Shown here one piece after another: positions 30,884 through 46,922 of a stretch of DNA of 64,000 bases. The position numbers and the translations under genes were made by a program. A model generated the notes under the pieces. It was not told the DNA's origin. It worked only from the letters and a program-made list of their open reading frames with translations, and did not search any database. Source of the DNA: Catellatospora sichuanensis (GTDB taxonomy: Bacteria > Actinomycetota > Actinomycetes > Mycobacteriales > Micromonosporaceae); contig NZ_ML660194.1 of NCBI RefSeq assembly GCF_007483665.1, positions 2,688-66,687 of the forward strand, given 5' to 3'. How positions within the stretch are numbered: position 1 is the stretch's first letter; the number at the start of each line of letters is the position of its first letter.

Positions 30884-31272
30884 CGACCAATTGCCGCGAC
30901 CGGCTGTCAGGCGGTGACCTGCCAGATCAACGCGGCTAAGCGACGATGATGGTCGCGTTAAAGAGGCCGCGGTAGATCCACGGTGAGCCCCTACCATGGG
31001 GGTCCATCGTGGACCCCTACGATGGGCTGGGCTCACGCCGTCCGCGCCGAAGGGCGCGTTTGCCCAGTTCAACGCAGCCGTCAGCCGCGGCGGAGCCTCC
31101 GCTACGACCGGGCGCTGGCCGGCGTAGCCTCTGGCCAGCGGCCGGTCTGCGGTCTAACATGACCCCGGCATGATCGCGGCAAGGCTGGCACCTGTGCGGC
31201 CATGGACGCCAGCCATGAGTCACTCACACGCCGCGCCGACCATAGGACTGCGTCGACACCGGAGGTGACAAG
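30884..31272. other. Divergent intergenic region
   Basis: About 390 bases between the minus-strand decarboxylase operon and the plus-strand HTH-SLOG gene. It contains the inverted repeat at 30990-31026 and no gene. Promoters for both directions must lie here. Confidence 0.6.
30990..31026. promoter_or_regulatory. 37-nt inverted repeat, copy A (putative operator)
   Basis: Half-sites CCTACCATGGGGGTCCA and TGGACCCCTACGATGGG are separated by three bases; 13 of 17 positions are symmetric. Same 17-3-17 geometry as copies at 33476, 35974 and 46886. Located between the decarboxylase operon and the HTH-SLOG regulator. Confidence 0.75.
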
Positions 31273-32091
31273 GTGCCAGCGCGGGACATCGACCCTCGAT
31301 GGTGGAGCGAGGCCAGCTGGAACGGCGTGCCGCTGGCTGACGTGCTGCGCCAGCGGGATGTCACCTCGCTGTTCCTCTTCCTTCGCTCACGCGGCATCAC
31401 GCGTGCGTCGATCGCGGCACAGACCGGACTGGCGGAGAACCGCGTCCGGGCCATATCGCAGGGCCAACAGCAGGTGACCGCCTACGACGTACTGGAACGG
31501 ATCGCCGAAGGCCTGACCATTCCGCGCGCCATGATGGGCCTCGGTACCGCCGACGACGACATAGCCAGCATCAGCCCGGCGTCGATGTCCGTGCGTCCCC
31601 GGATCGCGATCTGCGGCAGCCGCCACCGGCCAGGTACCAACGAAGGGGTCATCGACGTCAGCGTCCAGTCGCTGGCCGAGACCCTACGCGACGGACAGCT
31701 CGAGGTCCTGCACGGACCTGTCGGCGTGGGAGTCGAGGTGATGACCTACATCGCCAACAACTACCGCCCCGCGCATCTACGGCGCACCGTGGGGATCTTC
31801 GGCCACGCCAATGTCGTCAGAGACGTCCGCCTGGCCGTGATCGTCGGAGGCGGCCGCGGCACCCATGACGAGATAGACCTCGCACTGGAGGGCGGCACCC
31901 GCCTGCTGCCGCTCAACGCCTCCGGCGGAGCAGCACAACGCGCTTACCTGCTCATGCGCACAGATGTGAGCCTGCGCAGCTGGATCGCCGAGGCCGACTT
32001 CGCCGCCCTGGAACACTGCGCCGACATGCACACCATCACCGATGTCACACGCCGACTCATCACCGCCTGCCTGCCCGGGAGCCCTCCGTGA
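31273..32091 (+). CDS. HTH regulator with C-terminal SLOG-like domain
   Basis: A 272-residue protein. Residues about 5-90 form an XRE-like HTH domain (TSLFLFLRSRGITRASIAAQ; GLAENRVRAISQGQQQVTAY) nearly matching that of the protein at 36059-37318. Residues about 112-270 resemble a SLOG/LOG Rossmann-like nucleotide-binding domain: RIAICGSRHRPG, LHGPVGVGVEVM and LAVIVGGGRGTHDEIDLALE, close to the PGGxGTxxE signature of LOG proteins. Probably a transcription factor responding to a nucleotide-like ligand; the ligand is unknown. The stop overlaps the next gene by 4 nt. Confidence 0.8.
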   Translation: MPARDIDPRWWSEASWNGVPLADVLRQRDVTSLFLFLRSRGITRASIAAQTGLAENRVRAISQGQQQVTAYDVLERIAEGLTIPRAMMGLGTADDDIASISPASMSVRPRIAICGSRHRPGTNEGVIDVSVQSLAETLRDGQLEVLHGPVGVGVEVMTYIANNYRPAHLRRTVGIFGHANVVRDVRLAVIVGGGRGTHDEIDLALEGGTRLLPLNASGGAAQRAYLLMRTDVSLRSWIAEADFAALEHCADMHTITDVTRRLITACLPGSPP

Positions 32092-32780
32092 CCGACCGAC
32101 CTTACGTACTGCTCAAAGCCGCCGTGTCCGTCGACGGCTACCTCGATGACTCCAGCGCCCAGCGTCTGCTGCTGTCGAGCCCGGAGGACTTCGCCGCGGT
32201 TGACGAGCTACGCGCCGGCGTTGACGCGATCCTCGTAGGCGCGTCGACGCTGCGCGCCGACAACCCGCGCCTGATGGTCCGCTCGGCTCAGCTGCGGCAA
32301 AAGCGCCTCGCCGACGGCCTGCCGGAGACACCGGCGAAGGTGACGATCAGCCGAAGCATCGACCTCGACCCGCAGTTGCCGTTCTTCACCACCGGTGACT
32401 GCGACAAGATCGTCTACGTTCCGGACGCCGCGGCCGGCACCGCCGGGCAGCGCCTCGGTGCCGTCGCCCACATCGTCGGCGCCGGTGATCCGATCTCGTT
32501 GCCGAAGGTCCTGGCCGATCTTCACCGGCGCGGGATCCGCCGGCTCATGATCGAGGGCGGCAGCACGGTCCATACCCAGTTCCTGGCCGATGGCCTCGTC
32601 GATGAGATACGCCTGTCGATCGCGCCGTTCTTCGTCGGTGACAGCAGCGCCCCGCGGCTGGCCGGCGATGCGGCGTTCCCCTTCGGCTCCGGAAGGCGGA
32701 TGCACTTGGCGCAGGTCAGCCACGAGGGCGACTGCGTCATCGTGCGGTACCTGCTGGGCGAGCCCGCAGACAAGCCGTAA
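32088..32780 (+). CDS. RibD C-terminal-like reductase (dihydrofolate reductase fold)
   Basis: A 230-residue NADPH-dependent reductase of the RibD_C family. Motifs are VLLKAAVSVDGYLDD, ILVGASTLRADNPRL and RRLMIEGGSTVHTQFL. There is no deaminase domain. RibD_C reduces pyrimidine ribosyl intermediates in riboflavin synthesis, but stand-alone copies act on other pterin- or nucleotide-like substrates. Its ATGA coupling to an HTH-SLOG regulator suggests that the two share a metabolite; this is inference. Confidence 0.88.
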   Translation: MTDRPYVLLKAAVSVDGYLDDSSAQRLLLSSPEDFAAVDELRAGVDAILVGASTLRADNPRLMVRSAQLRQKRLADGLPETPAKVTISRSIDLDPQLPFFTTGDCDKIVYVPDAAAGTAGQRLGAVAHIVGAGDPISLPKVLADLHRRGIRRLMIEGGSTVHTQFLADGLVDEIRLSIAPFFVGDSSAPRLAGDAAFPFGSGRRMHLAQVSHEGDCVIVRYLLGEPADKP

Positions 32781-33017
32781 CTGGTCCGCCTGTCGGGTGC
32801 CACGTGTGCAACACAGGCTCGCGAGCACCTCGCGAGTGGCTTTCGTACCCGCGGACCCTGATCGCGACGGTGCGTCGAGCCTCCATCCGCCGCCGAACCG
32901 GCGCAGCATATGGCCGCGGAAGGACCGGCAGCGCTCGCGATCGCAGCGCAGCCGAGTACGGGCGCCTCGACGGCGCCGCTCTCGCATGTTCGCGACGCGA
33001 CTGGCTGAGGCGAACGG

Positions 33018-33293
33018 TCATCCGTGATGTCGTCGTGGATCGGCGCCATGGGCGTAGCCGCGGCTGGTCTGGACCAGGCCAGGTTCGGCTGCGCGCAGCA
33101 CCAACTGGATGGTCTGCCGCAGCAGCCGCGCGGCCTGCTCGGCTTGGCTGGTGCTGATCGGCCAGGCCAGCTCGACGTGCCAGTTCTCGTCACCGGTCTC
33201 GGTCGCCTGCCAGCCCCCGCCGATGAGCTGCTGTTCCTCCTGCCCAGTGAGCGCAGGTGTACGCGGCGAGCACGAATGGGGCGACAGACCCAA
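33018..33293 (-). CDS. Hypothetical small protein, start uncertain
   Basis: The coding pattern is good from LTGQEEQQLIGGGWQATETG through ENWHVELAWPISTSQAEQAA to PGLVQTSRGYAHG. No plausible start with a site lies in this frame except TTG at 33293. A strong GGGGAG site and ATG at about 33343 lie in another frame, so a one-base frameshift near 33325 is suspected. Family unknown. Inverted repeat copy C lies about 135 bases upstream of that ATG. Confidence 0.4.
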   Translation of the reverse strand: MGLSPHSCSPRTPALTGQEEQQLIGGGWQATETGDENWHVELAWPISTSQAEQAARLLRQTIQLVLRAAEPGLVQTSRGYAHGADPRRHHG

Positions 33294-33475
33294 CGCGGCA
33301 TGTAGACAGCGGTAGCTGGCGAGCAGGTGCGGTCACCACCGCCATCACCTACTCCCCTCACCTGGTGCCTGCACGTCGCCATACGAAGTCGCCCACGCAG
33401 ACCCGTGCGGCTCCCGACGGGCGCGCGGGGCAGATCGACCGCCGTCCACTGACGTATCGCCGATGCGGCCACCAG

Positions 33476-33512
33476 CCCATCATGGGCGTCTACGACGGAC
33501 CCCCATGCTGAC
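33476..33512. promoter_or_regulatory. 37-nt inverted repeat, copy C (putative operator)
   Basis: Half-sites CCCATCATGGGCGTCTA and CGGACCCCCATGCTGAC with a three-base spacer. The most degenerate of the four copies, but with the same geometry. It lies upstream of the small minus-strand gene near 33018-33343. Confidence 0.6.
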
Positions 33513-33667
33513 CAGGCACGAACCCACTGCTGGCCTCAGCCGCGGCAAGCAGCTTCGTGCGTTAATCCGAGCTAGAGACGATCAGGGTGCGAGCAACGGC
33601 GCTCAACCATTCGCGAGCACGGCGCTCGGCAGTCATCTGCCGGCGACCGACGACCCCGCCGGCGGCC

Positions 33668-34056
33668 TCACTGCGGGCGGCGCTGGCGGTACCTACGGCC
33701 GAACTGGGCGAAGACCGAGTCCTGCGCCCACTGCGCGTGCCACGCCTCGGCCACTTCAGGAGACATCGCAGCGACCGGTGTCTCGTACCCATGGGGAATG
33801 TGCACAGTCCACAGCGCGAGCCTGCCAGCCGGGCCCTGCGGCGTTCGAGCGACCACACCATGACGCCGGTGCACGAAAACCTCTGTGCCATGATCGTCGA
33901 CGTACACCAGGGCGGCGGTCGAAGTGCTCGCACGCGAGGAGTCAGATCCGCCATGTGCGCCACGCCGTTGGCGCCGACGGCATCGATCAGATGCTTGATC
34001 ATCGCACCGGGATAGCCGCCGAGTTCGTCGAGTTTACCGACCATCGACGGCGTCAC
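33668..34056 (-). pseudogene. Hypothetical protein broken by a one-base frameshift
   Basis: The first frame gives MVGKLDELGGYPGAMIKHLI then DAVGANGVAHMADL. Near 33940-33950 the coding sense moves frame and continues ALVYVDDHGTEVFVHRRHGV, VPVA-region HIPHGYETPVAAMSPEVAEA and a C-terminal helix WHAQWAQDSVFAQFGRRYRQ. Joined, about 125 residues. Family not recognised. It begins inside the end of the ApeA-like gene (start/stop overlap), so it may be that gene's partner. Confidence 0.5.
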
Positions 34057-35587
34057 TCGAGCTCGGCGTGGGTATTTGCGTCACGGACATGTCCGCGACG
34101 GCGCCGACGGTGGGTACCTCTTTGCGCCCCGGATTGGCCACGGACTCACGGCCGCTGATCCTCGCTTCAAGCTGGGCCCAGTCGGTAACGTGCTGATTCG
34201 CGAGAGCAACATAGTGCCGGTCCTGCTGAATCATCTTGAGCAGCTTGGTGCCGTTCGGGATTCCAGCTTCGATCAGGAGGCGTAGGCGGATGATCGCAAG
34301 GGTCGTGTAGACGATCGCGATCTGAGCTCCGTGGTCCTGCTCTACTCGATGCGCAGTGGGATATCCATGGCTTAGGGCGTTTCGCACCGTGCTTGCGGCG
34401 ACTGCCCAGGCGGCGTGCCGACCATTTAGGAGCCACTCGCAGGGCTCTCGTCCGAGCGCCTGTACCAGCTGTAGCAAGCGGCCTTCAAGGGTCGTCTCGG
34501 TCAACTTTACCGCCGAACGCACCTTCTCGCGTTTCGATCTCGCCAGGCTCGTTGTCTTGAGCGCTTCCCAAACCTCACTTGCGAATGGGAAATCGGCTGG
34601 CTGATCGTGGCTGGTTCGATGGAGTGTTTCCGCCGCGTTCACGACCTCGACGACCCTGCTCGACAAAGACGCATTCTCTGCTCGCGACTGATCGGCAACA
34701 TCGAAAGGCACAAGATTCCGTTGAGCGAGAAGAAACCATCGTGGAATGACTGTCGCAAGGTCAATGTCCCTGGCTGTGAACATCAGCCCATGGCGGTACG
34801 GGTTTGATTCCGCGACGGCATCAACCACGTCCGGGTCTACGCGAATGGGAAGTGTCCAGGTCGGGTCGTGTTCGCCGTATTGCGGCTGAAGTCTGAGGTT
34901 GAAATGCACGACACGCTCATGCAAGGCGATTCCCAGCAATACGCACAGTGGCATCACGATCTCTTGCTGCAGGGTATCGAGGGTAAGCCCGTGGGGTTGC
35001 TCAAGGTCGATCACGACGCGTTCCTCGACCAACCTTGAACGGACACCCTCAGTTCTTGCAACCAGGGAGCCGATCGTGAGGACTAGACCGTTACCGCAGT
35101 CGATAGTCGAGGGCTCCGCTCCATCGTAGTCAGGCTGTCGGCTACGTTCTGCATTCTCACCTCGAAAACCGCCATATGGCCACCAGGCAGCCAGCCCGGT
35201 CAGCTCGAATTGAGCGCGCACAATGAGAGCATCGTTAGGCAGGCAGTCACCCTCGAGGAGCTCATATCCTCGCCAGCGCTGCGAGTGTTGATCGTCGGCC
35301 TGGTCGCGGTCGTCTTGGGGAACGTCGAAGTGACGTCCTGGTTCCTTCGTGCTTTCCAGGTTGGCGTGTCGCAACGTGTAGCGAGTTCCCAGGCAGGCGC
35401 CATAGATGGTCGTCGGCGGGACGAGGGCTAGTTGATCAACGTCCTGCAGTTCGTGGACTTCTTGCGCGGGTGCCAGTGTGCCAACGAGATCCAACTGCCA
35501 TGCGTCGGAGGTTCGCACCAGTGTGCCTGGCACACGCTTACCTGGATCGATATTGGTCCACCAGACGCCACTACGAGAATCGATCAC
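34034..35587 (-). CDS. ApeA-like anti-phage HEPN protein
   Basis: A 517-residue protein. The N-terminal beta-rich part (VWWTNIDPGKRVPGTLVRTS; WQLDLVGTLAPAQEVHELQD) matches the ApeA N-terminal domain. The C-terminal 150 residues are a HEPN domain with the RNase-type R-x4-H motif in STVRNALSHGYPT. ApeA is a known single-gene abortive-infection defence protein thought to cleave RNA on phage infection. The GTG at 35587 is chosen for its AGGGAG site and fit to the family start. Confidence 0.75.
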   Translation of the reverse strand: MIDSRSGVWWTNIDPGKRVPGTLVRTSDAWQLDLVGTLAPAQEVHELQDVDQLALVPPTTIYGACLGTRYTLRHANLESTKEPGRHFDVPQDDRDQADDQHSQRWRGYELLEGDCLPNDALIVRAQFELTGLAAWWPYGGFRGENAERSRQPDYDGAEPSTIDCGNGLVLTIGSLVARTEGVRSRLVEERVVIDLEQPHGLTLDTLQQEIVMPLCVLLGIALHERVVHFNLRLQPQYGEHDPTWTLPIRVDPDVVDAVAESNPYRHGLMFTARDIDLATVIPRWFLLAQRNLVPFDVADQSRAENASLSSRVVEVVNAAETLHRTSHDQPADFPFASEVWEALKTTSLARSKREKVRSAVKLTETTLEGRLLQLVQALGREPCEWLLNGRHAAWAVAASTVRNALSHGYPTAHRVEQDHGAQIAIVYTTLAIIRLRLLIEAGIPNGTKLLKMIQQDRHYVALANQHVTDWAQLEARISGRESVANPGRKEVPTVGAVADMSVTQIPTPSSSDAVDGR

Positions 35588-35681
35588 GGCTTGCTCCCTT
35601 CTGAAACCTGGTCCGAACTGAAAATTATGACCCTGCCGGACCTGCGAACTTCTTTCACGGTGTGGTTGCGACTCTGGCCGG

Positions 35682-35861
35682 TCAAGTTTGCACAGAGGCC
35701 GCGGGCTCGACCTGTGGTCGGTGGTGCCCGGTGGCCTGTGTGGCAAGGATGAGGGCTTCCAGATCTGCGATGCGGCGGTCTTGAAACCGGTTGTTTTCGC
35801 GGCACGCCTTCAGCTTCTGATCCCCGGTGACGTCGGCGGCAGCCTCGCATGGGTTCCTCAC
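35682..35861 (-). CDS. Small coiled-coil-like protein
   Basis: About 59 residues from a GTG at 35861: CEAAADVTGDQKLKACRENN then RFQDRRIADLEALILATQAT. Codon pattern and a heptad-like helix support it, but there is no clear ribosome binding site. It ends 95 bases before the ApeA-like gene on the same strand. May be the tail of a decayed gene. Confidence 0.3.
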   Translation of the reverse strand: MRNPCEAAADVTGDQKLKACRENNRFQDRRIADLEALILATQATGHHRPQVEPAASVQT

Positions 35862-35973
35862 CTTCAGCGACTGCTTCGGAATCGGCCCAGTCGATCAACT
35901 GCCAACGATATGGTTGCTGGGTGCCCGGTGTGGCGCAGGTCGATGGTGACGCTTCCCTGGGTAGGCTCACCAG

Positions 35974-36010
35974 CCCACAGTGGGGATCCATGTTGGACCA
36001 CCTACCGTCA
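35974..36010. promoter_or_regulatory. 37-nt inverted repeat, copy D (putative operator)
   Basis: Half-sites CCCACAGTGGGGATCCA and TGGACCACCTACCGTCA with a three-base spacer. It ends 49 bases before the start of the HTH-TPR regulator at 36059, consistent with autoregulation. Confidence 0.7.
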
Positions 36011-36058
36011 ACGTCCAGACCCGACCGGTGCCGGTGCACTTCCCAGAGGCGGTGAACT

Positions 36059-37318
36059 ATGACAGCGCGCCACCCCGACCCAACCTGGTGGACTCGCGAG
36101 ACCTTCGAAGGCGTACCCCTCGACCATTTCCTGCAGAAGCACGACCTGGGAGCGATCTTTCGATTCCTTCGCAGCCGAGGCTTCAGCCGACATGTCATCG
36201 CCGCCATGGCCGGTCTCAGTGAGACACGGATCCGCGCCATCTCCCACGGCACCCAACGCGTCACGGCCTACGAGGTCCTCACACGCGTCGCCGACGGTCT
36301 GCACGTGCCACGCGAACTCATGGGCCTCAGCCATCATCGGCAGCCGCCACCATCCGGCCCCACCACCGAGCTCGACCTCGCTCACCAACTACTGCAAGCG
36401 GCCAGCACCGGCGTCAGCCAGGACATGGTAACCGCATGGAATGACCGCGTCGATCAACTGGGTCGGGCAACCCGAAGCGAGTCGCCAGATGTCCTCGCCG
36501 ACCAGCTCGTCAGCGGCACCGTGCAGCTCGCACCGCTGATCAACGACAACCGGATTCCCGCACGGCACCGGCTCGAGCTACGTCACAACACCGCACGCAT
36601 CGCCGGCCTCACCGCGCTGACTCTGCTCAAAACCGGCGACCGGCACCGTAGCGAGCACTGGTTCGCCACCGCCAACCAGCTCACCGACGAATCGACCAGC
36701 CCGCAACTACAGTCATGGATCGACGCGCAGCACGCGTATGCCGCGTTCTACCACGCCGACATAGCCTCGGCGCTCACCCTCGCCGAACGCGCGCGAGCGC
36801 GCGGCACTGGCGTCGGCGCGGCACTGGCTGCGGCACTGCTGGCCAGAGCGCACGCTGCCGTAGGCGACCACCGTGGCGCGCTCTCGGCGCTCGATGCCGC
36901 CATCGAGCTAACCGACCGCCTCGATCCAACCGAAGCCATCCGATCAGCGTTCGGCTACGACCATGCACAACTCGCATTTCACCGAGGCAACGCACTGACC
37001 GCCCTCGGGCTGCACACCATGGCTAGGCAAGAACACCAACGCGCTCTCACCCTGTACCCTGCCGACGACTACCTCGACCGCACCCTGATCGAGCTCGACC
37101 ACGCCGAGAGCCTCATCCATAGCGGCGAGCCCACGCACGCCCTCCACACGGTCACTGCCGTCATCAGGTCTCTCACCACGCAGCGGTCAGCCGGACTGAT
37201 CACCGACAGGTTCGGCCGGGTCCTGTATCTTGTCCCGGCAGCTGCAAGATCCCACGCCGCATACCGTGAAGCCAGTCAACTGCTGCGCGAACGCACCACC
37301 GCAGGAGCGCGCCAATGA
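36059..37318 (+). CDS. HTH regulator with TPR-like C-terminal region
   Basis: A 419-residue protein. Residues 5-90 are an XRE-like HTH domain (IFRFLRSRGFSRHVIAAMAG; LSETRIRAISHGTQRVTAYE) strongly similar to that of the HTH-SLOG protein at 31273. The remaining 300 residues are helical repeats of TPR type (GLTALTLLKTGDRHRSEHWF; IASALTLAERARARGTGVGA; GNALTALGLHTMARQEHQRA). Such regions often bind peptides or partner proteins. Inverted repeat copy D lies just upstream. The stop overlaps the GNAT gene by 4 nt. Confidence 0.85.
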   Translation: MTARHPDPTWWTRETFEGVPLDHFLQKHDLGAIFRFLRSRGFSRHVIAAMAGLSETRIRAISHGTQRVTAYEVLTRVADGLHVPRELMGLSHHRQPPPSGPTTELDLAHQLLQAASTGVSQDMVTAWNDRVDQLGRATRSESPDVLADQLVSGTVQLAPLINDNRIPARHRLELRHNTARIAGLTALTLLKTGDRHRSEHWFATANQLTDESTSPQLQSWIDAQHAYAAFYHADIASALTLAERARARGTGVGAALAAALLARAHAAVGDHRGALSALDAAIELTDRLDPTEAIRSAFGYDHAQLAFHRGNALTALGLHTMARQEHQRALTLYPADDYLDRTLIELDHAESLIHSGEPTHALHTVTAVIRSLTTQRSAGLITDRFGRVLYLVPAAARSHAAYREASQLLRERTTAGARQ

Positions 37319-37773
37319 TCGAGGTCAGGCACACGACGAGCGACGACGCCGAAACGATCGCCATGCTGCTCAACGAGGTCGACCGGTACTACGGCGCAAC
37401 CGAACTCGAGCCGCTCGACACCCGCGTCGCGCAGATCCACGACTTCGTCTTCACCGGCCATGCCAGGCCGACGGTGCTGCTCGCTCACGTCGACGGGAAA
37501 CCGGCAGGGTTCGCCAGCTGCTCATTGCTGTGGCCCGCTGCGGTGACCACCCGCTCGATGTACCTCAAGGAGCTGTTCGTCGTCGAAGGCGCGCGGCGGC
37601 GCGGAGTAGCCAGGGCGCTGATCGACGATGTGATCGCGGCAGCACGCGGCGCCGGATGCAGCCGAGTCGAATGGACGGCGGACGCCGACAACCCCGCCGC
37701 CCTCGAGTTCTACCGGGCCATCGGCGTAGAGATCAGCGAATCAAAGGTGTTCTACCGGCTGCCGTTGACCTAG
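37315..37773 (+). CDS. GNAT-family N-acetyltransferase
   Basis: A 152-residue acyl-CoA-dependent acetyltransferase. The acetyl-CoA-binding motif is LKELFVVEGARRRGVARALI (R/QxxGxG/A), followed by VEWTADADNPAALEFYRAIG. Substrate unknown. ATGA overlap with the HTH-TPR regulator indicates co-translation. Confidence 0.92.
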   Translation: MIEVRHTTSDDAETIAMLLNEVDRYYGATELEPLDTRVAQIHDFVFTGHARPTVLLAHVDGKPAGFASCSLLWPAAVTTRSMYLKELFVVEGARRRGVARALIDDVIAAARGAGCSRVEWTADADNPAALEFYRAIGVEISESKVFYRLPLT

Positions 37774-38152
37774 CTGGTATCGGTCCGTCAACCGCCAGCC
37801 CGCACCACTCGCACGGCACTGCTATCGATCATGTGTTTGCCGCGACCTCGCTATGGGGCCATCGGCCCAGCAGCCACTTCACGCAGTCCAAGCAACGGCG
37901 CCTGGCCGACGTACAGGACGGCCGATGCGGCCTGCAGCCGACGCCAGTGAGACCTCTCGGTCGCGCGCCCGGCCCCGTCCGGCAGCAATGCCGTGCGCTG
38001 CGGTGACAGCGCTTGAGAATGTTCTGACTCTGCCTTCGGCCCGCCCTCTGGTGCCCCGGAAGGCCCCAGAGGGCGGGCAAGCACCGCAGGTCAGCAGGTC
38101 CTGTCGGCTCGAGGTGGTGCGCGATGCAGTCGCTTACGCGTCGCAACCTCGG
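37774..38152. other. Intergenic, terminator only
   Basis: About 380 bases between the convergent GNAT and VOC genes. No gene recognised; it contains the hairpin at 38039-38078. Confidence 0.5.
38039..38078. terminator. Hairpin terminator
   Basis: A perfect 13-bp stem GCCCGCCCTCTGG with CCAGAGGGCGGGC and a 14-base loop. Placed about 75 bases after the VOC stop, it fits as terminator of the ATP-grasp/VOC transcript. Confidence 0.75.
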
Positions 38153-38557
38153 TCAGTGCGTCGGGGTCGGCACATGGCAGACCTCGACGCGCAGGCCGGA
38201 GGGACAAGCAACGAACACGGCGAAGTACCCCGGCGCGTACTCGGGGTACTCGCGTGGCTCGTGGACGACCGTCCAGCCTCCGGCCACGACCGCCTTGTGG
38301 ACATCGAGCACCGTCTGCTGGTCGGCGACGGCGAAAGCAGCGTGCTGCAGACCCGGTCGGCCGTGGGTGTGCGGGGTGAGGTCGTCGCCTTCGGGTCGGT
38401 AGAGCAGGATCTCCGGACTCGGTCCGGTCCAGGTGCGCAGCCGCTCGGAGTTGTGGGCCGGGGCGTAGCCCAAAGGCGCCAGGAGGGCGTCGAAGAACTG
38501 CCCCGACTTGCTCAGGTCGACGGCGGTCAGGGCGAGGTGGTGCAGGGTCGTGGGCAT
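38153..38557 (-). CDS. VOC-family protein (glyoxalase/bleomycin-resistance fold)
   Basis: A 134-residue protein with paired beta-alpha-beta-beta-beta modules: TLHHLALTAVDLSKSGQFFD, then LQHAAFAVADQQTVLDVHKA and CPSGLRVEVCHV. The likely metal ligands H6, H72 and E128 are present. Members are metalloenzymes or drug-binding resistance proteins. It is 42 bases after the ATP-grasp gene and probably co-transcribed with it. Confidence 0.88.
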   Translation of the reverse strand: MPTTLHHLALTAVDLSKSGQFFDALLAPLGYAPAHNSERLRTWTGPSPEILLYRPEGDDLTPHTHGRPGLQHAAFAVADQQTVLDVHKAVVAGGWTVVHEPREYPEYAPGYFAVFVACPSGLRVEVCHVPTPTH

Positions 38558-38599
38558 GTCTTCCTCAATCGTTCGGATGGGATCGGCTCATTGTGCTGG

Positions 38600-39874
38600 T
38601 CAGGCCGCGGTGTAGCCGTGCGGCTCGACGAGCGCCCGAAGACGGGTCAACGCCGCCTGCGGAGCGGGCGCCCCGACTCCGACTGACAGGCCGGCGTCGG
38701 GTTCGAACAGGGCGTCGACGACCTCGGCGGCGTTGATGTGCCAGCCGATGACGTCGGTTGCGCCGCGGAAGTCTGCCGCCACCTGCGCCTGGTTCGCGAA
38801 AGTGACCTGAGCTCGCCTCGCGGAAGGGGTGTAGCAGCAGGCGATGCAAGTCGCGTTGTGGGCCGCGGCTGCGTCGTTGCGGGCCTGGTCGCTGACCGGC
38901 TGCCCGAGACCGGCCAAGATGTGGCACACCCGCGGGTCGATCCCGGTGATCGCCTGCACCGAGTGCGCGATCAGTCCCCCACCTGGCCGAACGGCGATGT
39001 CCAGCGCCTGCCAGACGTCGCCGTCGAGACGCAGTTCGGCGTGCAGGACGCCGTGGACGACGCCGAGCGCCGCGGCGATACGTTCGGCGTGTCCGCGCAG
39101 ATCAGGTAGAGCGTCAATGATCTTCGGGTGGACCGGCGGTGACACCATGGCCCGATCGACGAAGGGGTGGACCTGGGTCGAGGTCAGCTTCTCGTGAACG
39201 ACGAGACTGATCACCCGACCGGCGCCCATCGTGATCTCGGCGCTGATCTCCATGCCTTCGGCCCCGCCGACGTAGCGCATGGCGATGATGTTGGAAGTTG
39301 CCGGGACGTTGCCCATTCGCAGCAGAATCCGGTAGTAGGCCAGGTTGTCGGCCGGGCTCAGGTCGTCGCGGTAGCGGTACACCCCCAGCGAACTGGTTCC
39401 GGTCGCGGGTTTGAGCACCGGCCGCGGTCCGTAGGCCGCGATCGCGTTGTCGATCAGTTGCGGGCTGAGGTTGCTGTAGAAGTAGTCGGGCACCTGCACT
39501 CCGGCTGCGGTGAGCCGGTCGTAGGTGGTTGCCTTGTCGACGGTGATGCATCGACTGGCAGCCAGCGGGCCGTACGCGGTGTCGTCGTTGAGGATGTGCA
39601 GTGAGGTGTTCCAGTAGTCGTCCAGGCAGGTCGCAGTCGTCAGCGGCAGCCCTTCGCCCGCTGCGGCGACGCGGTCCAGTGCCTCATCGCGTAGTGCGCT
39701 GCTGCCTGATTCCAGGGCCAGCAGGACCGATACGGGGATCTGCCGGATGACGGCGCCGCCGGACAACAGGTCGGGCAAGGTGGCGGCGTCGGTGTTCACA
39801 GGTCCGTAGATGCCGTAGACGGGGCTGGTGCCGCCCGGACGTTCGGCGGTCATGTCGCGGGAGGTTCCGGCCAT
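38600..39874 (-). CDS. ATP-grasp ligase (amino-acid ligase-like)
   Basis: About 424 residues. The ATP-grasp core includes RPVLKPATGTSSLGVYRYRD (phosphate-binding Lys) and YVGGAEGMEISAEITMGAGR. The C-terminal metal/ATP site is HAELRLDGDVWQALDIAVRP then GGGLIAHSVQ. It resembles carnosine synthase/L-amino acid ligase-type enzymes that form an amide bond by acyl phosphate chemistry. The ATG at 39874 is favoured because GAGG lies about ten bases upstream; the ATG at 39883 is too close to that site. Part of the presumed biosynthetic cluster. Confidence 0.85.
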   Translation of the reverse strand: MAGTSRDMTAERPGGTSPVYGIYGPVNTDAATLPDLLSGGAVIRQIPVSVLLALESGSSALRDEALDRVAAAGEGLPLTTATCLDDYWNTSLHILNDDTAYGPLAASRCITVDKATTYDRLTAAGVQVPDYFYSNLSPQLIDNAIAAYGPRPVLKPATGTSSLGVYRYRDDLSPADNLAYYRILLRMGNVPATSNIIAMRYVGGAEGMEISAEITMGAGRVISLVVHEKLTSTQVHPFVDRAMVSPPVHPKIIDALPDLRGHAERIAAALGVVHGVLHAELRLDGDVWQALDIAVRPGGGLIAHSVQAITGIDPRVCHILAGLGQPVSDQARNDAAAAHNATCIACCYTPSARRAQVTFANQAQVAADFRGATDVIGWHINAAEVVDALFEPDAGLSVGVGAPAPQAALTRLRALVEPHGYTAA

Positions 39875-39920
39875 GTGCGTCATACCTCGTTTCTGGTCGG
39901 GTCCGCGGTAGCGTCGCGGA

Positions 39921-40574
39921 ATGGGTAGCGGCGACGGTCGGCAGCTGGCCGGCATGGTGCGGCAGCGGCTTCGGGAGCTGGCGCAGCCGGAGATAGTCGG
40001 TGGCATCGTCGAGTCGCGCAGCCCGGGCAAGCAGGTGCTGGGTATCCGCATCCCGCCGCTGCGTCAAGCTGTCCGGCAGAGCTTGCAGGCCGAAGGCAGC
40101 AGCGGCGCTGGCGCTGCCGCCGATGTGCTGTGGCACGGGCAGTCGCATGAGGAGGAGCTGGCCGCGTGCATGCTGCTGCGGCTTTCGACCCAACGTCTGA
40201 CCAGCGAGGTTGTCGTATCGTGGGCGCCGCTGCTGGACAACTGGCTCAGCGTCGACGAACTCGGAGGCTGCGTCGGCGAAGCTCTGCTCGACGCGACGCT
40301 GGCACTGGGCGAGTTGGGGTGGCTGGCTGTGTCTTCGTCGCAGTGGCAGCGGCGGCTTTACGTCGTAGGTCTCATCAAACCTCTTCGTGACGGACTTGAT
40401 CCGCGGCAGGTGCCTCACGTCGCCGAGCTGCTGGCCGACCGCACGGCCATGGTCCGCAAGGCGTGCGTGTGGCTGCTCAGCGACACGGTCAAGCGTCGGC
40501 CGAGTGCCGGCCCGCAGTTCCGGCAGCTGCTGCCCGAGCAGGCGCCCGTAGCGCTGACCCGGCTGGTCCGCTAG
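39921..40574 (+). CDS. AlkD-like DNA alkylation repair protein
   Basis: A 217-residue HEAT-repeat protein of the AlkD/AlkC family: KQVLGIRIPPLRQAVRQ, VLWHGQSHEEELAACMLL, LLDNWLSVDELGGCVGEALL and VSSSQWQRRLYVVGLI, ending LLADRTAMVRKACVWLLSD. AlkD-type glycosylases remove bulky or cationic alkylated bases. It is the only plus-strand gene inside this cluster, divergent from the ATP-grasp gene and convergent with the antiporter. In yatakemycin-type clusters an AlkD-family protein protects the producer; a similar role here is inference. Confidence 0.85.
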   Translation: MGSGDGRQLAGMVRQRLRELAQPEIVGGIVESRSPGKQVLGIRIPPLRQAVRQSLQAEGSSGAGAAADVLWHGQSHEEELAACMLLRLSTQRLTSEVVVSWAPLLDNWLSVDELGGCVGEALLDATLALGELGWLAVSSSQWQRRLYVVGLIKPLRDGLDPRQVPHVAELLADRTAMVRKACVWLLSDTVKRRPSAGPQFRQLLPEQAPVALTRLVR

Positions 40575-40594
40575 CAGCGCGGATGCGTCCGGCG

Positions 40595-41998
40595 TCATGA
40601 TGGTGCCGCAGCCATGACCGGGACGGGCGGTTGCGCCGCAGTATTGGGGCGGGTGGGACGGCGGTAGCCCAGCAGGGTCAGCAGCGGACCGGTGGCCGCT
40701 GTGGTCACCAACGTCATCACCACGAAGACCGCGAAGACGTCAGAGCCGATGACTCCTGCGGCCAAGCCGGTGTTGAGCACCAGCAGTTCGGTCATGCCCC
40801 GGCAGTTCATGGCGACTCCGATAGCCGCGCTGTCACGCCAGGACAGCCCGACTGCGCGGCTCACCGTGGTCGCGGAGATCAGTTTGCTCAGCGCGGCGAC
40901 GGCGAGCACCGCGGCACACAGGCTGATGGCGGTGTTGCCTGACAGCAGCCCCAGGTCGGTGCGTAAGCCGACTGCGGTGAAGAACAGCGGCAGCAGCAGC
41001 CACTCAGTCAAGCCGCTGGCCATCGTCGTGACCTGCTGCACCGCGACGGCACCGCGCGGCACAGCCAGACCGAACAGGAACGCACCGAAGATGGCGTGCA
41101 AGCCCAGGTATTCGGTCGCGGCCGCGCTCAGCAGCAGCCCGGCCAGCAACGCGGCGGGACCGAGAATCCCGCCGGCGGCGTAACGGCCGGCGGCATCGGC
41201 CATCAGCGGCCGGGCCAGCCACCAGACCGCCGCGGCGAACACGGCGGCACCCGCCAGACGGGTCATCGTCTGGGCGAGAGAGCCGCGTTCGACCAGGCAC
41301 ATGGTGACTGCCAGCAGACACCACAGGGTGGCGTCGCCGACCGCGGCCGAACCAGTCGCCAGCGTTCCGACTTTGCTGGTCAGCATTCGGCGTTCGGCGA
41401 GAATATGCGCCAGGACCGGTAGGGCGGTGGCGCTCAACGCCGCACCGAGAAACAGCGCGTACGGCAGCCCGGCGACCGCCGGCGGCCGGTACGGCTCCAG
41501 CAGCAGCACCACGGTGAGGACTCCGCACACGAACGGAACGGCGATCATCGCATGGCCGATGGCGACGGCCTGGGACGCGCTGCCAGCAGCAGAGTGCCCG
41601 GCCATCTGCTGGCCGACGACGAACACGAACAAGATCACGCCCAGCTGGGCGAGCAGGTCGACGGCCCGGACACTAGCCGGATGCCTCAGGAAGTCCGCGG
41701 CGCCGGGCGCCAGCACCCCCAGCAGCGACGGCCCGAGCATCAGCCCCACCGCGGCCTGGCCGATGACGCGTGGCTGGTGCAGCCGCACAGCCAGCGCTCC
41801 CCCGGCGTGAGCGGCGACGACCACGATGACGATGGTGGCCAGGACCCGGCCGAGGTCGCCGGCGTGGGCCGCCGCCTGGGCATCGGATGCGGGCACTTCT
41901 GCGGCGCCGACGGCGGCCAGCACCGCCGCGGCGACCGCAGCCGGGATGACCACCGCCGCCATGTAGATCCACGTCAGTCGGCTTCTCAGAGGACTCAC
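40595..41998 (-). CDS. Cation:proton antiporter, CPA2 family
   Basis: A 467-residue membrane protein with about 13 hydrophobic segments and CPA2 motifs (LFVFVVGQQMAGHSAAG, HAIFGAFLFGLAVPRG, MNCRGMTELLVLNTGLAAG). The GTG start overlaps the aminotransferase stop by 4 nt, so it is the last gene of the radical-SAM operon. Similar antiporters occur in some antibiotic clusters, where they may export product or balance charge; unproven here. Confidence 0.9.
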   Translation of the reverse strand: MSPLRSRLTWIYMAAVVIPAAVAAAVLAAVGAAEVPASDAQAAAHAGDLGRVLATIVIVVVAAHAGGALAVRLHQPRVIGQAAVGLMLGPSLLGVLAPGAADFLRHPASVRAVDLLAQLGVILFVFVVGQQMAGHSAAGSASQAVAIGHAMIAVPFVCGVLTVVLLLEPYRPPAVAGLPYALFLGAALSATALPVLAHILAERRMLTSKVGTLATGSAAVGDATLWCLLAVTMCLVERGSLAQTMTRLAGAAVFAAAVWWLARPLMADAAGRYAAGGILGPAALLAGLLLSAAATEYLGLHAIFGAFLFGLAVPRGAVAVQQVTTMASGLTEWLLLPLFFTAVGLRTDLGLLSGNTAISLCAAVLAVAALSKLISATTVSRAVGLSWRDSAAIGVAMNCRGMTELLVLNTGLAAGVIGSDVFAVFVVMTLVTTAATGPLLTLLGYRRPTRPNTAAQPPVPVMAAAPS

Positions 41999-43035
41999 TG
42001 CTGCTCCAGGATGTGGGCTGCGGCATCGACGACCGCAGCAGGCTGGGCGGAGCAGAGCCGGACGGTCGACTGGCCGGCGCCGAAGACAACTCCCGGCAGG
42101 CCGACGATTCCCGCAGCACGCAGCATCGCCCAGGCGTCGGCTTCACGTTCAGCGCTGACCAGCAGGTGTGTGCCAGCATCGGCTTCCACACAACGAAAAG
42201 CTGCTGACCTGTTGACTGCGGTCTGCAGCCGAAGTCGGTGGCGGTCGACCTGATGTTTCCTGGCGCCCAGTTCAGCCTGGATCGTCGGACTGGTGAGCAC
42301 GCCGAGCGCCACCTGCTGGCTGAGCTGGCTGGCCGACATCGACATGTGGGTCTTGACCGCCTCAACAACTTTGATCAGCGCCGCCGACGGTGAGGCCAGG
42401 CAACCGATCCTGATCCCGGGCAGGCGCAGCAGCTTGGACAGGCTGAACACCACGATGTCGCACTCAGCGGCGGGAGCAGCCGGATGGGAGGTGATCAGCG
42501 GAGCACTGTGGGAGACATCCCAGATGGTCCAACCCCCGCCAGGCCGCACGTCCTGACCGCCGACAAGGACCCCCGTCGGGTTGTGCGGACTGCAGATCAC
42601 ACGTACCTGGCCATGCCCCACGCCGGGAATCGGACCGGGCACGTCATAGTGGTCAACGTGCAGGCCAGCCAGCACGGCGAGCTGGTCGAAACCCGGAAAG
42701 CCCGGCCGCGGCGCGATGACCGTGTCGCCCGGATCGGCGGCACACAGCAGCGCCAAGTGCAGCGCCTCGCTTCCCCCGGCCGTGATCACGACCTGGGCGG
42801 CGCTCAGACCGAGCATCCGCCCGACCACCTCCCGCAGCGGCTGCTCGCCCGCCACCGATCCGTAGAAGGCAGCTTGCTCGGCGGTGGCGTTCAGCCCGGC
42901 AAGGACCAGGCGGGCCGTCTCCAGCGGCGGGGAGTTGTCCCCGCGCAGGTCCAGCGAACCGTCAGGCACGGGGAAGGAATCGTAGGTCCAGGTCACCACG
43001 GACCGGCAGCGGTCGCTGACCGCGGGCCCGCTCAT
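41995..43035 (-). CDS. PLP-dependent aminotransferase (class I/II, HisC-like)
   Basis: A 346-residue fold-type I enzyme: LDLRGDNSPPLETARLV at the N-terminus, VVITAGGSEALHLALLCAA, VICSPHNPTGVLVGG and the Schiff-base Lys in VVFSLSKLLRLPGIRIGCLA. It has the size and N-terminus of histidinol-phosphate-aminotransferase-like enzymes. The ATG at 43035 overlaps the aldolase stop (ATGA). May be a transaminase or a PLP-dependent decarboxylase/lyase in the pathway. Confidence 0.88.
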   Translation of the reverse strand: MSGPAVSDRCRSVVTWTYDSFPVPDGSLDLRGDNSPPLETARLVLAGLNATAEQAAFYGSVAGEQPLREVVGRMLGLSAAQVVITAGGSEALHLALLCAADPGDTVIAPRPGFPGFDQLAVLAGLHVDHYDVPGPIPGVGHGQVRVICSPHNPTGVLVGGQDVRPGGGWTIWDVSHSAPLITSHPAAPAAECDIVVFSLSKLLRLPGIRIGCLASPSAALIKVVEAVKTHMSMSASQLSQQVALGVLTSPTIQAELGARKHQVDRHRLRLQTAVNRSAAFRCVEADAGTHLLVSAEREADAWAMLRAAGIVGLPGVVFGAGQSTVRLCSAQPAAVVDAAAHILEQQ

Positions 43036-44078
43036 GGCTGCTCCGCGCTGCGCCAGCACTCCAGCAGGTCGTCCGCACGGTAGGAGTCCACAGACCCCGC
43101 GACGGTGGCCAGCCACATGGCTGCCCGGTCGAGGTCCAACCCTGCGGTGTCAGCGAAAGCCCGCAACGCCTGCTCCTCTACCGGGGTCAAGTTGAGGGCA
43201 CCGCAGACCCGCGCCAGCAGCGGTAGCACCGGCCAGCCCGACACGACCGACAACTCACCGCGCAGAGCCAGCAACGCGTCGACGTCGGCCAAGCGGCCCG
43301 CGCCCAGCAGGCGGTGCCGGACCAGCATCAGCTCGCCGGAGAGGTTGCCGCCCCCTCGGCCAAGACCCAGCAGCGAGCAGTCCAGGAAGGTGGCACCTGC
43401 GCCAGCCGCGGCCAGGCTGTTGGCGTACGCCAGGCTCAGCGGATCGTGCGCGTGGAAGCCGATCTGGGCGCCAGTGACCTTCTTGATCCGCCCGATGCGG
43501 TCGGCGACCTCTTCAGGTGCCATACCGCCGCAGGTGTCGGCGATGTACAGCACGTCGGGGCTGATCTTGTCGCTGATCCTCGCGGCATGGTCGGCGAGTT
43601 CGCCGGGTTCGTATCGTGAGGCCATGGCGATGTTCACGCTGACGGTCAGGCCGACGCGGCTGGCTGCCGCTGCCAGCTGCGCGATGTCGGCGAACCAGTC
43701 CGGGTGGTAAACCAGCCGGACCATGTTCAGGCCGGCGGCGGCGCACGGCTGAAGATCAAGTGGCCGGCTCAGCGCCGTCGGGTGGATCATCGCCGCCAGC
43801 AGGGCGCTGCTCGCCCGCGCCTGGGCGACGTGTCCGATGGTCAGGTGCGCGGCCGCGCCCGCGTACGGGGCGCCGTGCTCGGCGGGTACTCCCCCGATGT
43901 AGCCCAGCTCGACGACATCGACGCCGCAGGCTCCGGCGACGGCCGCCACGCGCGAGAACATGTGAGCAGGCCAGGCGAAGTCGACTTCGAATCCGCCGTC
44001 GCGCAAGGTGACGTCGATGAGGTTCGCCGCCCGTCCGGCTGTCGTCTCGGGTCGGTCGAGGGTGAAGTGGTCACGCAT
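43032..44078 (-). CDS. DRE-TIM aldolase/metallolyase (HMGL-like)
   Basis: A 348-residue TIM barrel of the homocitrate synthase/4-hydroxy-2-oxovalerate aldolase superfamily. The signature IDVTLRDGGFEVDFAW holds the catalytic D-x-T-L-R-D. VVELGYIGGVP, IADTCGGMAPEEVADRIG and the metal-binding H-x-H in IGFHAHDPLSLAYANS follow. It is expected to form or break a C-C bond next to a keto acid. The start overlaps the upstream aminotransferase by 8 nt. Confidence 0.9.
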   Translation of the reverse strand: MRDHFTLDRPETTAGRAANLIDVTLRDGGFEVDFAWPAHMFSRVAAVAGACGVDVVELGYIGGVPAEHGAPYAGAAAHLTIGHVAQARASSALLAAMIHPTALSRPLDLQPCAAAGLNMVRLVYHPDWFADIAQLAAAASRVGLTVSVNIAMASRYEPGELADHAARISDKISPDVLYIADTCGGMAPEEVADRIGRIKKVTGAQIGFHAHDPLSLAYANSLAAAGAGATFLDCSLLGLGRGGGNLSGELMLVRHRLLGAGRLADVDALLALRGELSVVSGWPVLPLLARVCGALNLTPVEEQALRAFADTAGLDLDRAAMWLATVAGSVDSYRADDLLECWRSAEQP

Positions 44079-45210
44079 CGTCGCCTGCCAGGGTCCGGGC
44101 GACCGCCGCCGCAGCTGCCGTCGGCTCCAGGCCTGCCCGGGCCGGGCACAGTCGGAAGAACCCTGGGGCACCGAAGCCCGCGCCGCCGGTCACGCGGGCT
44201 AGCAGCCCTGACCTGTCTTGTTCAGCGACCGGGCGGGCTTCGGGGACGCGGCACCACAGGTAGAGCCCACCGGCTGAGACGACGTCGATCTCCCACCGGG
44301 CCAGCGCAGCTGCCAACGCCGCCCTTGAGGCCGACACCTGTTCACGGACTGCCGTGAGCCAATGCCGGGCGGCAGGACTTTCGATCAGAGTGTGCGCCGC
44401 TCGTTGAGCCACCGTGCTGGTGCAGGACGCGTACGTCGACCGGTACAGGGTCAAGTCCCTGACCATCTGCGGGGCGGCAGCCAGGAACCCTACCCGCAGG
44501 CCAGCGGCCGCCAGCCACTTGGAGCACGAGTCGACCACGACATGCCGGTCCGGGTCGAAGGCGGCAACCTTCGTCGCGAGACCGGGTTGGTCGCTGAACA
44601 TCCGGTACACCTCGTCGGACACCACGCCGAGCCCGTACTCGACGGCGATGCCGATCAGCGCGTCCATGGTCGGTTGATCGACCCCGACACCCGTCGGGTT
44701 GTGCGGGTAGTTCAGCACCAGCAGAGCGGGCTTCCTGCTCGCCGAGGTGATGATGCGCCTAAGCGCCCCTGGGTCGGCGGCCACGGCGACCGGGTCGTAG
44801 CCGACCCGGGTGCGCCCGATCGCGTCCAGCCACAGGCCGTAGGGCTCCCATCCGGGCTGCGGCACCAGCACCGACCCGTGCGGCCGCTGGTGCAGCAGGT
44901 AGCGGATCGCCAACCACGCGGCTTCCTTGCCACCGCCCGTGACCAACACACCGAGCTCGTCTCGCCGACCTTCGGCGATGGTGTCCAGGTACGTCGCGCG
45001 CAGCACCGCGTCGCCGGCGGGGTCGGCGTATCCGAAGTCGCTGATCCGGGCCACAGCGCTGCCCAGCTCCTCACGGACTTCGGTGGGCAGGCTGTAGCGC
45101 GCCTCACCGACGCTGAGGTCCAGCATCGGTGAGGCGTCGAAAGTGCGTGCGTACGCCGAGCCGGGCGCCGACAGCGCTTGCAGCGTCCGCCCGATCGCCG
45201 TGTCGCTCAT
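44071..45210 (-). CDS. PLP-dependent aminotransferase (class I/II)
   Basis: A 379-residue fold-type I enzyme with LLVLNYPHNPTGVGVDQ, VVSDEVYRMFSDQPG and the Lys motif VVVDSCSKWLAAAGLRVGFL. Similar to aspartate/LL-DAP-type aminotransferases. The ATG at 45210 overlaps the radical SAM stop by 4 nt. Two aminotransferases plus an aldolase suggest building an unusual amino acid. Confidence 0.9.
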   Translation of the reverse strand: MSDTAIGRTLQALSAPGSAYARTFDASPMLDLSVGEARYSLPTEVREELGSAVARISDFGYADPAGDAVLRATYLDTIAEGRRDELGVLVTGGGKEAAWLAIRYLLHQRPHGSVLVPQPGWEPYGLWLDAIGRTRVGYDPVAVAADPGALRRIITSASRKPALLVLNYPHNPTGVGVDQPTMDALIGIAVEYGLGVVSDEVYRMFSDQPGLATKVAAFDPDRHVVVDSCSKWLAAAGLRVGFLAAAPQMVRDLTLYRSTYASCTSTVAQRAAHTLIESPAARHWLTAVREQVSASRAALAAALARWEIDVVSAGGLYLWCRVPEARPVAEQDRSGLLARVTGGAGFGAPGFFRLCPARAGLEPTAAAAAVARTLAGDDA

Positions 45211-46616
45211 GACGACGACAGCACCGGAAGCCGGCGGCCGGTGGCGGTGGGCAGGGCGTTGTAGGCGCCCATGTGCCGGGCCCGCGGAGAGCCGTCGAGC
45301 CAGGCCGGTGCGTCGACGCCGCCGACCTGCGCGTCCAGCCGGGCGCACATCTTCAGGTACAGCCGGCGCTGGGCGTCGGCGAAGAAGTGCGCCATCAGCT
45401 CGCTGTAGATCAGCTTGCCGTCGGTCGTCAGCCGCAGCACCCCGTCGGCGATGGTGGCGTACCCGTCGGCGACGATCTGGTCGATCCGCGGCTGGTAGAC
45501 CTCCGCCAACCCGAGGCCGTCGAGGTCGGCCATGGTGAACGTGAGCCGCTTCGGGAAGAACACCAGGCCCTTCTCGTAGGCGTGTCCAGGCGACGAGCAC
45601 ACGATCGGCAGCCGCGCAGATGCGGCCTGCTTGGCGTAGTCGCGCTCGTTGGCCTCGTTGTACCAGGCCAGGCCGCGGATGAACGAGTACGCGCCCGCGC
45701 CGACCCCGACGCACTCGTCGTGGTAGCCGCCGTAGAGCGTGGAGAACATGTACCTGGTCGGCGGTGCGTCCGGCGACCCGAAGCAGTACATGTTCTGCTC
45801 GGCCATACCGTCTCGCTGCAGCTGCGCGCGAGCCTCGTGGAACATGCGCGAGCGTTCGTCGAGCACCGCCGGCTGCGGCAGCTCACCGGACCTGATGCGG
45901 TCCTGCCACCCCGGCAACGTCATCACGTAGTCGACCGGGTAGATCGACACGCTGCCGATGCCCGACGTCGCCGCCAGCGACGCGTCGATGCACGCGGCGT
46001 CGAAGTCCTGGCCCGGGAACCCGACCATCATGTCCAGGTTCGTGTTCGTGAAGTACTTGTTGGCACCCTGGATCGCCGCGTAGACCTGGTCCAGCGTCGC
46101 GGTGATGTTCACCATCTCGCGCGTGGCGGGATGGAACGACTGCACACCGAAGCTGACCCGCGTGACACCCAGCTGCGCCAGCAACGCGAACTTGGCGTCG
46201 TCGACGCTCTTGGCCTCGAACTCGAAGGAGATCTCCGCGTCCGGCTTGATCCTGAACGACTCACGGATCACCGAGAACAGGGCGACCAGCTGCTCGTGGT
46301 CCAGCACCGACGGCGTACCGCCACCGATGTAGACCGCGTCGAGTTCCCAGCTGGCCATCCGTCGTGTGGAGCCCAGCGTCCGCAGTTCGACGTGAAGCGC
46401 CTGAAGGTAGGCGCTGACGCGCTCGGCGTTGCCGACCGACTTCACGAACGGGCAGAACGTGCAGATCGTGTCGCAGAACGGGATGTGGACGTACAGGGCG
46501 CGCAGCCCCGCTGCCGGGGCGTCGTCAGCCGACAGGAAGGAGGACACCACTCCGCCGTGGTCGGCGCGGTAGTTCAAATCGAAGAACGGGTAGGAGAAAG
46601 ACTCAAACCGAAGCAT
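45207..46616 (-). CDS. HemW/HemN-like radical SAM enzyme
   Basis: A 469-residue protein. The [4Fe-4S] motif C48-x3-C52-x2-C55 (HIPFCDTICTFCPF) is followed by AVYIGGGTPSVLDHEQL, EFEAKSVDD and VSFGVQSFH, then TNLDMMVGFPGQ, all typical of the HemN/HemW class that uses two SAM molecules. True HemW is a haem chaperone; members in secondary-metabolite clusters do radical methylation or cyclopropanation. It is the first large gene of a five-gene operon with 4-8 nt overlaps. GGGAG before the ATG. Confidence 0.9.
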   Translation of the reverse strand: MLRFESFSYPFFDLNYRADHGGVVSSFLSADDAPAAGLRALYVHIPFCDTICTFCPFVKSVGNAERVSAYLQALHVELRTLGSTRRMASWELDAVYIGGGTPSVLDHEQLVALFSVIRESFRIKPDAEISFEFEAKSVDDAKFALLAQLGVTRVSFGVQSFHPATREMVNITATLDQVYAAIQGANKYFTNTNLDMMVGFPGQDFDAACIDASLAATSGIGSVSIYPVDYVMTLPGWQDRIRSGELPQPAVLDERSRMFHEARAQLQRDGMAEQNMYCFGSPDAPPTRYMFSTLYGGYHDECVGVGAGAYSFIRGLAWYNEANERDYAKQAASARLPIVCSSPGHAYEKGLVFFPKRLTFTMADLDGLGLAEVYQPRIDQIVADGYATIADGVLRLTTDGKLIYSELMAHFFADAQRRLYLKMCARLDAQVGGVDAPAWLDGSPRARHMGAYNALPTATGRRLPVLSSS

Positions 46617-46675
46617 GCCGACTCCCGAATAATGTCGATCAATGGTTGAGTGATTGTGTGATCAAATGGCGGCCC

Positions 46676-46708
46676 GCCGGAGGCGGTCTCCGGCAGGCCG
46701 CCTCCGGC
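46676..46708 (-). promoter_or_regulatory. Leader hairpin before the radical SAM gene
   Basis: A perfect 11-bp stem GCCGGAGGCGG with CCGCCTCCGGC and an 11-base loop, in the untranslated leader 60 bases upstream of the radical SAM start and immediately after the tiny reading frame at 46709-46738. The arrangement of short reading frame then hairpin is that of an attenuator, but no U-tract follows. Confidence 0.5.
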
Positions 46709-46738
46709 TCACGCGCCGCCCGCGACCCACTTCGTCAT
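46709..46738 (-). CDS. Candidate 9-residue leader peptide
   Basis: Reads MTKWVAGGA then TGA. A purine-rich site (GAAAGGCGG) lies upstream with usable spacing. It may be a leader controlling the radical SAM operon through the hairpin that follows. It is too short to judge by composition and could be chance. Confidence 0.3.
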   Translation of the reverse strand: MTKWVAGGA

Positions 46739-46885
46739 GAAAATCACCGCCTTTCTGCACGCGTCTACACGGCGAGAATCGCCGTGGTCTGGGCTTCTTC
46801 GGCACCTGTCTTGGGCACTCGCCTTGCTCGCCTGAGACGTGCCGATTGGCACTCATCCTGAACGCATGCAGAAGCCGCGCATAAG

Positions 46886-46922
46886 CCCATCGTGGGGGTC
46901 CAGGGTGGACCCCCACGGTGGC
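46886..46922. promoter_or_regulatory. 37-nt inverted repeat, copy B (putative operator)
   Basis: The best copy: half-sites CCCATCGTGGGGGTCCA and TGGACCCCCACGGTGGC with spacer GGG; 15 of 17 positions are symmetric. It lies about 150 bases upstream of the leader reading frame and 270 bases upstream of the radical SAM start. Confidence 0.75.

Follow-up and report, generated by a model that had tools for sequence, protein, structure and literature searches.

Rows of 13-bp-spaced palindromic boxes as probable operators of paralogous NsdA-like regulators in a Catellatospora gene cluster

NsdA-like regulators have an effect on the production of antibiotics by streptomycetes, and among the XRE/Cro-like repressors, lambda CI and SinR have tandem operators. 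Here we describe four palindromic sites in a 64,000-nucleotide stretch of Catellatospora sichuanensis DNA (contig NZ_ML660194.1, positions 2,688 to 66,687 of the forward strand; hereafter the window), which we consider with good confidence to be operators, built as rows of short boxes, of two NsdA-like helix-turn-helix (HTH) regulators encoded between them at 31273 and 36059. For the NsdA family (NF053720, with NsdA and NsdB of Streptomyces), the main text of a report describes binding of NsdAsr to promoters by ChIP-seq (chromatin immunoprecipitation sequencing) and electrophoretic mobility shift assay, with repression as the outcome and an effect on antibiotic production (PMC12243394). None of the terms motif, palindrom, DNase or footprint occurs in that main text, and no NsdA-family operator sequence was found among the literature matches listed; it is among these matches that the sites stand as the unreported regulon announced by the original prediction, the targets of which we treat below as candidates.

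The four palindromes are real. They begin at 30990, 33476, 35974 and 46886, and each consists of a half-site, three nucleotides and the reverse complement of the half-site, as first proposed. Allowing up to three mismatches, the half-site occurs seven times in the window, six of them inside the four sites, whereas 100 shuffles gave 1.28 occurrences on average and never more than 5. When a core pattern of 20 letters (TGGGGGTCCA-N3-TGGACCCCCA) was searched in the whole genome (9,454,573 bases), six places with at most three mismatches were obtained, four of which are the window sites, while the reversed pattern used as control gave none; sites 2 and 3 show three core mismatches each and are therefore degenerate. 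A sequence-only model built from 16 sites, the four of the window included (R1), scored 33.2 bits at 30991-31028 and 10.8 bits (E 0.033) at 30975-30998 in site 1, and 28.3 and 25.9 bits for sites 2 and 3, both of which belong to its training sites; outside the four sites, no place in the genome fell below E 0.2. With a second model trained on 13 sites of relatives and no window site (R2), the window sites again ranked first in the genome, site 4 at E 1.7e-7 and site 1 at E 1.7e-6. In this genome the sites are restricted to the cluster.

Such a distribution bears on whether the copies derive from a mobile element, as its ends or as what is left of it. Sites 1 to 3 are almost evenly spaced (2486 and 2498 bp), a regularity that would suit an element and that is perhaps due to chance. 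However, matching between copies spans 36-42 nt only, there are just four clear copies in 9.45 Mb, and in other genomes the sites precede different genes. We rejected this explanation, which appears extremely improbable, for the absence of extended similarity and the few copies in the genome, transposases not having been searched for; with that same limit, the copies do not behave as the end of a known mobile element, an outcome that the original prediction had foreseen as fatal to it.

The fixed 37-nt unit of 17-3-17 geometry in which the sites were initially cast was retained only in part. Its palindromes hold, but sites 2 and 3 are degenerate as units, and all four elements are better read as tandem palindromic boxes of about 9 bp, YCA-NNN-TGR, which follow one another with a 13-bp period. 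Read in this manner, and without assignment to a strand, each site is a row of three boxes, and site 1 (30978..31025) a row of four: CCACGGTGA at 30978-30986, outside the 37 nt, CTACCATGG at 30991-30999, CCATCGTGG at 31004-31012 and CTACGATGG at 31017-31025. These boxes keep the 13-bp register and span the 30990-31026 palindrome except for its end letters. Site 2 (33476..33512) has boxes centred at 33481, 33494 and 33507, the middle one degenerate; site 3 (35974..36010) has centres at 35979, 35992 and 36005, the third box being degenerate; and site 4 (46886..46922), with three intact boxes centred at 46891, 46904 and 46917, is the best site of the genome. The period was also counted in 12 sites of relatives and in the window sites, taking only those letters of the outer boxes that lie outside the search core. 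At offset 13, matches were counted in 31 of 48 letters for the relatives and in 13 of 16 for the window; the other offsets from 9 to 29 gave 8-33% in the relatives and, offset 10 excepted, 0-34% in the window.

Since the arms are complementary around a 3-nt loop, the same letters could instead form RNA hairpins, acting as attenuator or terminator. Paired cells amount to 65.9% in 16 sites vs 34.7-45.0% when the partners are slid, as expected for any palindrome, but comparison with shuffles showed no measure to be higher in the sites (paired 65.9% vs 67.5%; covariation 0.133 vs 0.148). A terminator scan of 30200-36200, an interval that covers sites 1 to 3 and ends before site 4, lists none at these three sites; a promoter scan of the same interval found none, with 0.7 expected. 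Also against a hairpin, several sites lie between divergent genes. Because compensatory changes did not exceed those of shuffles, the hairpin reading was rejected, and we regard it as very unlikely.

Turning to the proteins, the HTH-TPR regulator (36059..37318, plus strand) scores 97.3 bits with NF053720 (cut-off 75), and members in three comparison loci (L030, L081 and L084) likewise pass the curated cut-off. The HTH-SLOG regulator (31273..32091, plus strand) differs from this family in bearing, behind an N-terminal HTH (about aa 10-91), a putative SLOG-like sensor (about aa 108-272) in place of the TPRs. It shows no match to NF053720 at E 0.01, and neither does its long relative in locus L023. 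Its resemblance to SLOG and LOG-like sensors (the SLOG domain of BcThsA, LOG and the Moco carrier protein) comes from the predicted fold: Foldseek returned the BcThsA SLOG domain as best match (E 1.5e-4, TM score 0.48 of the query), followed among the top matches by TM1055 and the Moco carrier protein, for a model built from a three-sequence alignment with a pLDDT (predicted local distance difference test) of only 70. By profile, aa 108-272 stays below the Pfam and NCBIfam cut-offs for SLOG superfamily membership (TIGR00725 at 18.2 vs 106.9 bits; LSDAT_prok, in the relative from L027, at 21.6 vs 25.4 bits), as does the HTH_31 match of the protein, and in contrast to the known sensors this putative one is fused to a DNA-binding HTH. 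The HTHs of the two regulators, previously taken for nearly the same, are 54% identical over 91 aa and hence only similar. In the PDB, the HTH profile matched the immunity repressor 8bny (E 1.3e-5) and, weakly, C.BclI (0.015) and SinR (0.59). The operators proposed here differ from the tandem operators of XRE/Cro-like repressors such as lambda CI and SinR by their short boxes, their strict 13-bp period and their arrangement in rows of two to four. Copies of the module can be numerous: the genome G139 has 11 HTH matches at E <= 1e-8, the genome G750 has 17 matches to the HTH-SLOG profile, and many of these are in short frames.

The evidence that links sites and regulators is comparative. Among 354 genomes of the family Micromonosporaceae, 159 match the HTH profile at E <= 1e-8; in the counts of distance that follow, HTH positions are those among the matches listed. 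R1 at E <= 0.005, a threshold at which chance alone would give about 1.8 sites, detected 39 distinct sites in 30 of the 354 genomes. At least 32 of the 39 have an HTH match on their own contig no more than 12 kb away, three (in G186, G254 and G157) belong to genomes with the listed HTH match on another contig, and four (in G243, G141, G155 and G351) have no HTH in the surrounding 12-14 kb, G243 and G141 holding one weaker HTH match each. For the sites outside the training set the proportion is at least 17 of 23 within 12 kb, which does not amount to 17 independent cases, since several of the counted sites are orthologous. The core at up to two mismatches was found at 15 distinct places in 12 of the 354 genomes (reversed control, five places): at least ten are within 12 kb of an HTH on the same contig, one (G186) has it on another, and four have none near (G093:C40, G105, G141:C11 and G320), apart from a weak match of E 0.001 by that of G141. 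Across the class, two of 394 genomes had a site at E <= 0.001, the own one included; the other, G665, has no HTH in its 3-kb locus. The original prediction had proposed to look for hits near homologues of the regulators and had named scattered hits as refuting it; most sites in the family lie near the HTH, and in the genome of the window the hits are not scattered.

Starting from the HTH leads to the same association. In 60 loci chosen by the HTH (L081-L140), the core with up to four mismatches occurs at 12 places, two of them already known (L084), and the reversed control at none in all 72 loci scanned. A pair of boxes 13 or 14 bp apart is present within 350 bp upstream of 28 of the 70 HTH genes. 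Of the 721 other genes that these loci contain, 21 have such a pair, and several of these are permease or radical S-adenosylmethionine (SAM) genes belonging to the clusters themselves. Strict boxes reach 2.97/kb in the DNA upstream of 76 HTH genes (6 in loci found by the motif and 70 in loci found by the HTH), vs 0.13/kb in their own open reading frames (ORFs) and 0.33/kb further away. When upstream boxes no more than 60 bp apart are paired, the spacing is 13 in 16 pairs, 14 in 9 and 27 in 1, the 14-bp spacing belonging mainly to one clade of proteins of about 457 aa. As for gene positions, the site lies some 60 bp before the regulator start as taken in L023, where other starts are possible, and some 130-145 bp before it in L081 and L082. 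In L151-L155 it is located between a radical-SAM gene and a permease (in L154, a 241-aa gene instead of the permease); unless a called ORF runs into the site, the gene starts are about 90-330 bp away. These five loci represent a Micromonospora-type cluster with permease, radical-SAM, methyltransferase and acetamidase-like genes beside the arrays (Pfam assignments for L151 only).

A locus of the same genus, L167 (G084:C1:3150000-3168000), provides what appears to be a natural exchange of the HTH. Its SLOG part and its RibD_C protein are 62% and 69% identical to those of the window, where a RibD_C-domain reductase (32088..32780, plus strand) lies downstream of the HTH-SLOG gene; relatives of this reductase also accompany HTH-SLOG genes in L027 and L138. 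The N-terminal part of the L167 protein differs, carrying by eye the letters of another HTH. Neither a box pair nor the HTH of the cluster was found in the surrounding 18 kb, and the G084 genome has no R1 match. In this one case, then, the SLOG-RibD_C pair seems to have been kept with another HTH and no paired boxes.

Another regulator, for instance a different HTH protein of these clusters, could in principle bind the boxes, the NsdA-like genes being merely co-localised targets. Further HTH genes are indeed present in several loci. Moreover, the exact 18-letter core was met in 13 stretches of the genome collection, three in G093, G136 and G186 and ten outside the family, these ten without the HTH of the cluster in their flanking DNA; among all 13 the HTH lies within the flanking DNA of two (L046 and L050). 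In Kribbella kalugense (L038, 4498-4518), the exact core is joined by one good outer box near other HTH-like genes, and the HTH of the cluster was not found in the 8 kb around it. Opposed to such a regulator are the different C-terminal parts of the HTH genes that the sites accompany (SLOG, TPR, long and HTH-only), the box spacing that tracks the HTH clade (14 bp in 8/9 genes of one clade) and the lack of paired boxes in L167 with its different HTH. We find this explanation unlikely. The operator reading for the paralogous HTH regulators of the cluster, which was also that of the original prediction, is well supported by these comparative data, because the sites cluster with the HTH, precede regulator or cluster genes and have no paired counterpart in L167.

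The orthology of counted sites is only one of the points that weigh against this operator reading. Sites 2 and 3 are weak by the relatives-only test, given that R2 places them at E 0.008 and 0.078 and the next place of the genome at 0.155. The sites of relatives were found with a core derived from the window, so that only the outer boxes and the counts made from the HTH side are free of this bias. In the window the letters at offset 10 match as well (9 of 16). On the HTH side, 42 of the 70 genes have no upstream box pair, and large clusters dominate the counts: after clustering at 70%, the pair is found in 0 of 7 short proteins, in 9 of the 31 members of the largest cluster and in 7 of 22 clusters. 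L167 is a single exchange, in which the absence of boxes is judged from the pair pattern and the missing R1 match. Two further points concern the targets, namely the distance of about 708 bp from site 1 to the permease start (30282), and the fact that the radical-SAM protein and the next two enzymes have no relatives in the comparison loci, for which reason the radical-SAM gene is a candidate target by position only.

Between the end of site 3 and the start of the HTH-TPR gene there are 49 bp, in full agreement with the position initially given; about 247 bp separate the end of site 1 from the HTH-SLOG start. The other three sites had been placed 105-150 bases before minus-strand frames, and several of these distances do not fit: beside the 708 bp of site 1, site 2 stands about 180 bp ahead of a minus-strand ORF of 91 aa (33018-33293), and the radical-SAM start (46616) is about 270 bp from site 4. 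An ORF at 30279-30890 comes within about 100 bp of site 1; like 33018-33293, it has no relative in the comparison loci. Despite the distance, the APC-type permease (28828..30282, minus strand) is a likely target through site 1. It is followed on the same strand by a protein without Pfam or NCBIfam match (27972..28826) and, as third gene of the operon, by a decarboxylase dependent on pyridoxal phosphate (26797..27978), histidine-decarboxylase-like and below the equivalog cut-off. The same-genus loci L024-L026 keep these three genes; there a site precedes the permease by about 225-250 bp, and an HTH-only gene is close by. After site 4, a HemN/HutW-like radical-SAM protein (45207..46616, minus strand) is the first gene of a minus-strand run.

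Two neighbours of the sites recall defence genes. On the far side of site 3 from the HTH-TPR gene, and divergent from it, is a minus-strand gene (34034-35596) whose protein has an ApeA N-terminal domain and HEPN_Apea, both above Pfam cut-offs; its only PADLOC match is weak (PDC-S58, E 3.4e-4), and its third-position GC content (0.65) is below that of its neighbours. A Wadjet-like operon (47524-55370), recognized by the JetA3, JetC3 and JetD3 models (646.6, 1563.8 and 334 bits), points away from site 4 at about 600 bp; no PADLOC model matches the second of its genes (49077-49889). Beyond it, 56192-57151 and 57482-58441 encode two 319-aa proteins with similar N-termini, recombinase-looking by eye.

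From these arrangements we infer how the sites could work. One regulator dimer would probably sit on each YCA-NNN-TGR box, and neighbouring dimers might cooperate in binding, so that some 40 bp of the promoter would be covered. Between repression and activation, the former would be expected because of the NsdA family. The HTH-TPR protein, a regulator encoded within the cluster, would probably act on its own gene (autoregulation) through the box array of site 3. Site 1 may control both the permease/decarboxylase operon and the HTH-SLOG gene, and site 4 the radical-SAM operon. The two regulators, with similar HTHs, may share sites, and their SLOG and TPR sensors could release the operators on different signals.

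A wider and more speculative possibility, to which we give little weight, is that a single HTH module whose sensors can be exchanged (SLOG of nucleotide type, TPR and others) reads a common 13-bp array, two regulators of one cluster thereby integrating two signals at the same operators, and that the arrays may also set the ApeA-like HEPN gene and the Wadjet operon, which face sites 3 and 4. If this control of defence genes were true, a biosynthetic cluster and defence against phages or plasmids would be linked under one switch. For the family of regulators, a box whose sequence and spacing are known would make NsdA-like regulons predictable from sequence and may allow orphan clusters to be tied to their regulators.

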